Part shown: in pieces, positions 2-1,519 of the stretch
Layout: each line of letters starts with the position of its first letter
Numbering within the stretch: the stretch's first letter is position 1
Assembly (NCBI GenBank): GCA_005879815.1
Contig: VBKA01000069.1
Coordinates: 1-32,435 of the forward strand
Reading direction: 5' to 3'
DNA from: Chloroflexota bacterium
GTDB taxonomy: Bacteria > Chloroflexota > Limnocylindria > QHBO01
DNA length: 32,435 nt
Notes under the pieces: model-generated
Database searches by the model: none
What the model was told of the DNA's origin: nothing
The model's input: the letters and a program-made list of their open reading frames with translations, nothing else
Made by a program: the position numbers and the translations under genes

Positions 2-814
2 CAGATGAAGATCTGGTGCCCGTTCCATGAGGAGGTCATCCCGCGCTCGGAGACTGTGCGCGGCTACGAGTGGAGCAAGGACAAGTACGTGGTGGTCACC
101 GACGAGGACCTGGAGTCGGTGCCGCTCAAGACGGTGCGGGCAATCGAGATCGAGAAGTTCGTGGACGAGGAGCAGGCCGAAGAGACCGCCTCGCGCTTCG
201 TCAAGCAGGCTTACTACCTGGAGCCAGATGAGATCGGCCGTAAGGCGTTCTACCTGTTGAAATCGGTGCTCGCCGACGCCGGCAAGACCGCGATCTGCAA
301 GATCGTGCTGAGGGACCGCGAGCAGCTGGCAGCCCTCAACCCCTTCTCGGAGACGATGCTGCTGACCACGCTGCATTGGCCCGATGAGATCCGCTCCCTG
401 GAGGAGCTGAACCTCCCTGAGCAGGAGATCGAGATCAAGCCCACCGAGCGCAAGATGGCCGAGCAGCTGGTGGATTCGATGACCGGGGAGTTCGATGCCA
501 CCGAGTACAAGGACGACTACCGCGAGGCGCTGATGGGCGTCATCGAGGCCAAGGTGGCGGGTGAAGAGCCGACGCGGGCGGCCAAGGCGGAGCCGACCAA
601 GATCGGCGACCTGATGGCCGCCCTTGAGGCGTCGGTCGCCGCCGCTCGCGAGGGACGTCGCGCTGGTGGCGAGGAGACCAAGGCCCCAGCCGCCGAAGGC
701 GGTGGACGCTCCAGGCGCTCCGCGAAGGAGCCTGCGAAGAGCAGGGGCGGTGAGCGGGCCGGCGCGCGCCGAGCCCAGGAGGAGAAGCCGGCTCGGCGCC
801 GCAAGACGGCGTAG
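2..814 (+). CDS. ku: Ku protein (bacterial NHEJ), 5' truncated by the window edge
   Basis: Translation has Ku-core features (VRGYEWSKDKYVVVTDEDLESV, YYLEPDEIGRKAFYLLKSVL, KPTERKMAEQLVDSMTGEFDATEYKDDYREAL), the C-terminal DLMAALEASVAAARE segment and a Lys/Arg/Ala-rich tail. The N-terminal part of Ku is missing, and the frame is open to the window start. Confidence 0.95.
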   Translation, partial: QMKIWCPFHEEVIPRSETVRGYEWSKDKYVVVTDEDLESVPLKTVRAIEIEKFVDEEQAEETASRFVKQAYYLEPDEIGRKAFYLLKSVLADAGKTAICKIVLRDREQLAALNPFSETMLLTTLHWPDEIRSLEELNLPEQEIEIKPTERKMAEQLVDSMTGEFDATEYKDDYREALMGVIEAKVAGEEPTRAAKAEPTKIGDLMAALEASVAAAREGRRAGGEETKAPAAEGGGRSRRSAKEPAKSRGGERAGARRAQEEKPARRRKTA

Positions 815-823
815 CCTCGCGCC

Positions 824-1519
824 GTGCTCGGCGACCAGCTCAAGCTCCCGCTCCCCGAGGAGCAGGCCGCACCGCGCCTTCCAGAACGGATCAACCCGAT
901 GCAGGCGGTCGGCGTCGACCAGCCCTTCGACGACCCTGGGTACTTCTTCGAGCCGTGGTGGCCGGGCGCCCGAGCGCTCGCCTTCGTCGAGTCGGGACGG
1001 CTGCGGATGCAGGTGAGCGGACTGTCAGATCCCCTCGCGGCTTTCCCGGAGCTGCGCGATCTGCCCCGGCAGGTGGTCGGGGAGGGCGTGGTGCTGGACG
1101 GCACCCTGCTTGTCCTCGACGACGAAGGGCGTCCTGATTCGGAGCTCCTGCGGGCGCGGCTGACCGGTGCCCCCTCCGGCGCGACCGGTCCCGGGAGACC
1201 GGCGTACGTGGCTGCGGACCTGCTCTGGAGCGAGGGGGCGTCCTGGACCCGACGGCCGTTCAGCGCTCGGCGCGATCGTCTGACGGCCGTGTTGCCGGCC
1301 GGGGACCGGGTGATCGTCGGCCGCGGCTACGTTCAGGAGGGGACGTTGGTGGCCGAGGCACTTGCCGCGCTGGGCCTGGACGGTCTCTCCGCGCGGCGCC
1401 TCGCCGCTCGCTACCGGGCGGGGTCGGGCCACGACGCCTGGTTGCGTGCGCCCATCACCCCGCCGGAACCCCGGCCCCGCCCCACGCTGGCGCTCATCCT
1501 TCGCCTGCCGCTGACCTGA
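824..1519 (+). CDS. LigD ATP-dependent ligase-domain-like protein, predicted catalytically inactive
   Basis: GTG start 9 nt after the Ku stop. Collinear with LigD adenylation domains (NPMQAVGVDQPFDDPGYFFEPWWPGARALAFVESGRLRMQ...FPEL...VVLDGTLLVLDDEGRPDSELLRARL...YVAADLLW...LGLDGLSARRLAARYRAGSGHDAWLR), but motif residues are substituted. Confidence 0.75.
   Translation: MLGDQLKLPLPEEQAAPRLPERINPMQAVGVDQPFDDPGYFFEPWWPGARALAFVESGRLRMQVSGLSDPLAAFPELRDLPRQVVGEGVVLDGTLLVLDDEGRPDSELLRARLTGAPSGATGPGRPAYVAADLLWSEGASWTRRPFSARRDRLTAVLPAGDRVIVGRGYVQEGTLVAEALAALGLDGLSARRLAARYRAGSGHDAWLRAPITPPEPRPRPTLALILRLPLT

Follow-up and report, generated by a model that had tools for sequence, protein, structure and literature searches.

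Directly behind the gene for Ku, the bacterial end-binding protein of non-homologous end joining (NHEJ), a Chloroflexota genome encodes what looks like a DNA ligase domain with its active site erased, which raises the question of what such a protein is kept for. The window analysed here, 32,435 nucleotides long, is one whole contig (G000:C217). The Ku gene occupies 2..814 (+), truncated at its 5' end where the contig begins, and matched the Ku models of Pfam (103 bits) and NCBIfam (Ku_bact, 204.9 bits). Its stop codon ends at 814 and, after a 9-nt gap, the ligase-like gene starts with a GTG at 824; this gene, which we call PSL (pseudo-ligase), lies at 824..1519 (+) and encodes 231 aa. The coordinates, motif readings and gap reported in an earlier note on this DNA were exact. 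Further along the same contig (20953-24604), a metallophosphatase gene is followed by a SMC/RecN-like ATPase gene, forming an SbcD/SbcC-like pair.

PSL residues 13-208 matched NHEJ-ligase models (NCBIfam PRK09632, E 1.4e-24; TIGR02779, E 1.2e-18), and phmmer aligned M. tuberculosis LigD (1vs0/6nhx) to residues 39-208 with an E value of ~1e-8. Pfam DNA_ligase_A_M scored 22.6 bits, slightly below its cut-off of 26.2. An AlphaFold2 model built from a 31-row alignment had a mean pLDDT of 88 and a pTM of 0.82; the nucleotidyltransferase (NTase) core was mostly above 90, and residues 1-20 and 211-231 were lower (56-71). When this model was compared with the PDB in Foldseek, DNA ligases were returned at probability 1.0, among them Pyrococcus ligase 2cfm (TMq 0.74) and mycobacterial LigD 6nhx (TMq 0.67, rmsd 2.6 A). 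PSL is therefore predicted with high confidence to be an NTase domain of the LigD/LigC kind, with its core at residues 19-210 (878..1453 (+)). The earlier note had aligned the protein by eye with the LigD-type adenylation domain and had left room for a structure prediction showing no NTase fold; both the profile matches and the confident model bear its alignment out. It had also held that overall ligase length was kept, which proved mistaken: only the NTase domain remains, and the OB domain with motif VI is fully missing, as the protein ends 21 residues past the NTase core and the OB columns of the alignment are empty. Nor is PSL a LigD, being a single domain without polymerase or phosphoesterase domains.

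The NTase fold is the one feature of an ATP-dependent DNA ligase that PSL retains. At the motif I position (950..973 (+)), EPWWPGAR (E43 to R50) stands for ExKxDGxR, so that KxDG with its nucleophilic lysine is absent, and WWPG was found in 37/37 orthologs. The motif III position (1097..1105 (+)) reads DGT for DGE, and the Glu was absent from 31/31 aligned sequences (T in 19, W in 9, V in 2 and I in 1). At motif IIIa (1211..1225 (+)) the adenine-stacking Phe is replaced in AADLL; most orthologs read ASDLL, with S at this position in 23/31 and T in 4/31. DGLSAR takes the place of EGxxxK at the motif IV/V position (1379..1396 (+)), with no Glu consensus at residue 186; residue 191, where the Lys would be, is R or H. 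The terminal WLK has become WLR (1439..1447 (+)), with Arg in 31/31. Like the NTase domain of LigD and LigC, PSL has the fold, aligns along the full domain and sits in the neighbourhood of Ku; unlike them, it has lost all of these motifs together with the OB domain, and it carries extra conserved peptides at its ends.

A retained NTase fold might still be active if the nucleophile had moved. This is barely credible here, as no conserved Lys or His column was present among the 31 aligned orthologs, 25 of which are entirely free of lysine (against 21 lysines in the adjoining Ku fragment), and the motif III Glu, the IIIa Phe and the motif V Lys are gone as well. The missing column and the lysine-free sequences make it very unlikely that lysyl-AMP forms elsewhere in the protein, and we reject a relocated catalytic lysine.

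The loss of every catalytic motif and of the OB domain might equally mean that PSL is a pseudogene, a solitary copy of a Ku-linked ligase in decay. When the source genome and 40 relatives were searched at the protein level, PSL orthologs turned up in almost every genome of the source family, and a further family of the class had them too; in a phylum sample of 301 genomes, matches at E <= 1e-45 were confined to the class. The full set comprised 37 sequences (the window plus 36 loci); nearly all of the named loci come from Chloroflexota MAGs, CSP1-4 and a Candidatus Limnocylindrales bacterium among them, and one is labelled Steroidobacteraceae. All of the orthologs read FE[PA]WWPGx, with R next in nearly all. 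W45 and P47 were kept in 37/37, and F42, E43, W46, G48, W206, R208, R227 and L228 were invariant with them in the 31-row alignment. Pairwise dN/dS was 0.07-0.23 for PSL and 0.08-0.29 for Ku, showing that PSL is under purifying selection similar to that on Ku, and the reading frames were open in nearly all copies. The invariance of the new residues across dozens of species, the low dN/dS and the high-confidence fold lead us to reject decay, which we regard as extremely improbable. The earlier note had taken orthologs with an intact KxDG as the sign of a decaying copy; KxDG was found in none of the orthologs, and the K-to-W change was universal. We conclude that PSL belongs to the ATP-dependent DNA ligase family (LigD/LigC-type) as a genuine pseudoenzyme, retained by selection.

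Genomic context ties PSL to Ku. It was present in 27/118 genomes of the class (threshold >280 bits), all 27 of which also encode Ku, and in 25 it stands directly behind Ku; in the other two, PSL lies at a contig end (G101) or Ku and PSL are on separate contigs (G035). Both operon position and co-occurrence make PSL a putative component of Ku-dependent NHEJ. In G023 and G033 the gene order is Ku, PSL, LigD. The separate intact LigD that the earlier note had suggested looking for was found in the source genome (G000:C81), with FEVKWDGYR and ligase, OB and Prim-Pol domains, and an intact LigC-like ligase is also encoded there (G000:C30). Together with the purifying selection and the Ku synteny, these intact ligases agree with that note's proposal of a selected pseudoenzyme rather than random decay. 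In several genomes, the PSL-linked Ku is not the only one, and another of more canonical type is encoded as well (G003:C23:179413, G005:C51:6541, G006:C26:1071, G010:C12:15604, G018:C103:27904 and G019:C513:592).

Elsewhere in the class, in families f2 and f4, Ku is followed by a gene for an intact ligase with NTase and OB domains (~360 aa, FEVKWDGIR; L043, L045 and L046). It shares with PSL the position after Ku and a matching C-terminal peptide, its tail RPRLVVLxSLPF aligning with the PSL tail RPxLALIxRLP[LF]; it differs in having the catalytic motifs and the OB domain and in lacking an N-terminal QLxLxL. Synteny and the shared tail suggest that PSL may have descended from this Ku-adjacent intact ligase, with the tree leaving the sister relation open.

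A sister family of dead ligases, PSM, was found in further genera of f3. It reads FEPxWGGxR, with S, A, R, N, T, W, I, V or M at the Lys position and the Asp changed to Gly (34/35) or Ala. PSM resembles PSL in the loss of this Lys and Asp, in the missing OB domain, in an N-terminal QLSLxL and in a C-terminal VLALIxRLP[LF]; it differs in retaining DGE and the Phe, in being free-standing rather than beside Ku, and in occurring without Ku in two genomes. In the tree, PSL and PSM formed one clade (95/96) and PSL was monophyletic (100/100), while placement of the intact Ku-adjacent ligase was unsupported. Shortly upstream of the PSM start codon, most of the loci L121-L149 carry TACCATCG, probably the -10 element of a leaderless promoter, and its position fixes the N-terminus for most PSM. 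In the two genomes of genus g23 (G042 and G043, about 90% complete), PSM was present, and neither Ku nor a full LigD match was found. These two genomes rule out that the dead-ligase clade as a whole depends strictly on Ku; because PSM persists there in the absence of Ku, at least PSM has a Ku-independent role. These Ku-less genomes keep a LigC-type ligase and a LigD-type Prim-Pol alongside the dead ligase (G042:C50:7761 and G042:C25:703; G043:C5:147917 and G043:C3:223318). A second short, dead-looking NTase family of ~240 aa (L053:3772-4488, L054:2717-3448, L055:2349-3077, L056, L063 and L064) occurs in the same family of genomes and forms one clade (100/100). Its members read FEP[LCY]WxGxR or VEPCWKGER, with DGE changed to DGI or DGS and the motif IV/V Lys kept, and none was seen beside Ku.

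PSL and PSM both begin with the pattern M..[DE]QLxLx[ILF]. In the window this is DQLKLPL (833..853 (+)), a putative β-clamp-binding peptide of the QLxLxL type. QLx[LMF]x[LIVFM] occurred in 26/37 PSL and 35/35 PSM, against means of 0.13 and 0.2 (maximum 3) in shuffled sequences. The strict QLxLxL was lost or altered in 11/37 PSL, mostly from the other family of the class (EPLPLQF, RPSLAL), and none of the LigD, LigC, LigB-type or intact Ku-adjacent ligases inspected had an N-terminal QLxLxL. The bacterial clamp-binding consensus is QL[S/D]LF, with QLSLPL a tight binder (PMC12309361), and QLSLPL is present at the N-terminus of Hda (PMC3836487). ImuB, a catalytically dead polymerase that serves as a hub of the mycobacterial mutasome, uses QLPLWG for the clamp (PMC10421592), and DinB of the PSL genomes carries QQLTLFD or EQLGLFD. 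As expected of a clamp-binding peptide, the PSL peptide lies outside the folded core, in the low-pLDDT N-terminus. From this match to the consensus, binding of the N-terminal peptide of PSL and PSM to DnaN is putative.

At the other end, the tail RPTLALILRLPL (1478..1513 (+)) is a conserved peptide common to the intact Ku-adjacent ligase, and it too falls outside the part of PSL that is folded with confidence. The motif was found in 34/37 PSL and 35/35 PSM; the three misses were two truncated records and one conservative variant, MALLQRLPL. A second clamp motif here is not favoured, as the first position is Q, R or L rather than a conserved Gln. This conserved peptide, the putative clamp-binding peptide and the PSM family, which is not linked to Ku, are all new beyond the earlier note.

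We propose, at a probability of about 0.5, that PSL is a dead ligase kept as a clamp-tethered, non-catalytic Ku/NHEJ adaptor. Its N-terminal QLxLxL peptide would bind the sliding clamp, DnaN. The NTase body would keep the surface of the LigD ligase domain that faces protein and/or DNA and so may sit on Ku or on the break; in Ku, the minimal C-terminus and the core both touch the ligase domain of LigD (PMC13201618). At the other end of PSL, LALIxRLP[LF] may hold a further partner, such as Ku, LigD or another repair protein. PSL would thereby anchor Ku-bound ends or active LigD at the clamp, or keep the ends in place for LigD. Because PSM is Ku-independent and the strict N-terminal motif is lost in 11/37 PSL, the clamp half and the Ku half of the model can separate, which is why we rate the full model no higher. 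The broader reading, that a class-wide natural family of dead ligases connects the sliding clamp with Ku, or with some other partner in break repair, as a clamp-tethered NHEJ scaffold, is plausible and is offered tentatively.

The same observations can be read without the clamp. PSL may be a Ku partner or end-bridging scaffold, as the earlier note had suggested; its body would then bind both Ku and the DNA ends, and its N-terminal peptide some other target. Its strict co-occurrence and adjacency with Ku, the contact between Ku and the LigD ligase domain (PMC13201618) and the degraded clamp-like motif in 11/37 PSL would all fit. This reading is nonetheless rather unlikely, given that QLSLxL is present in 35/35 PSM, agrees with the clamp consensus at each position and is found even in genomes without Ku. 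PSL could also act as a brake or antagonist that occupies the site of the ligase domain on Ku or at nicks and limits error-prone joining by LigD. A ligase fold without the activity motifs, in a genome that encodes an active LigD, favours a brake, as does the involvement of the ligase domain in the handover between Ku and LigD (PMC13201618); however, the sequence holds nothing that separates a brake from a scaffold, and PSM persists without Ku, leaving an antagonist doubtful.

Two known systems offer analogies for the proposed adaptor. The way in which ImuB hooks DnaE2 to the clamp is similar in logic, although ImuB is a Y-family polymerase of another pathway and shares no homology with PSL. 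In vertebrates, synapsis requires the ligase body of Lig4 whether or not it is catalytically active (PMC9638927; PMC10858965), and inactive Lig4 still promotes repair (PMC9638927). Lig4 is, however, normally active and its dead form is an engineered mutant; both systems are analogies only.

In the literature searched, which was largely open-access, we found neither a description of a bacterial pseudo-DNA-ligase beside Ku nor a paper linking the clamp to bacterial NHEJ. If the clamp-Ku bridge is real, we know of no earlier bacterial adaptor that is a natural pseudo-DNA-ligase, nor of any earlier physical connection of Ku-type end joining with the sliding clamp. The structural role of Lig4 has been studied in vertebrates with engineered dead mutants, whereas PSL is a naturally evolved dead body beside Ku. 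With dead PSL and active LigD occurring together, the non-catalytic role of a ligase becomes directly testable in a small bacterial system and, if the clamp peptide works, bacterial end joining would be tied to the replication clamp.
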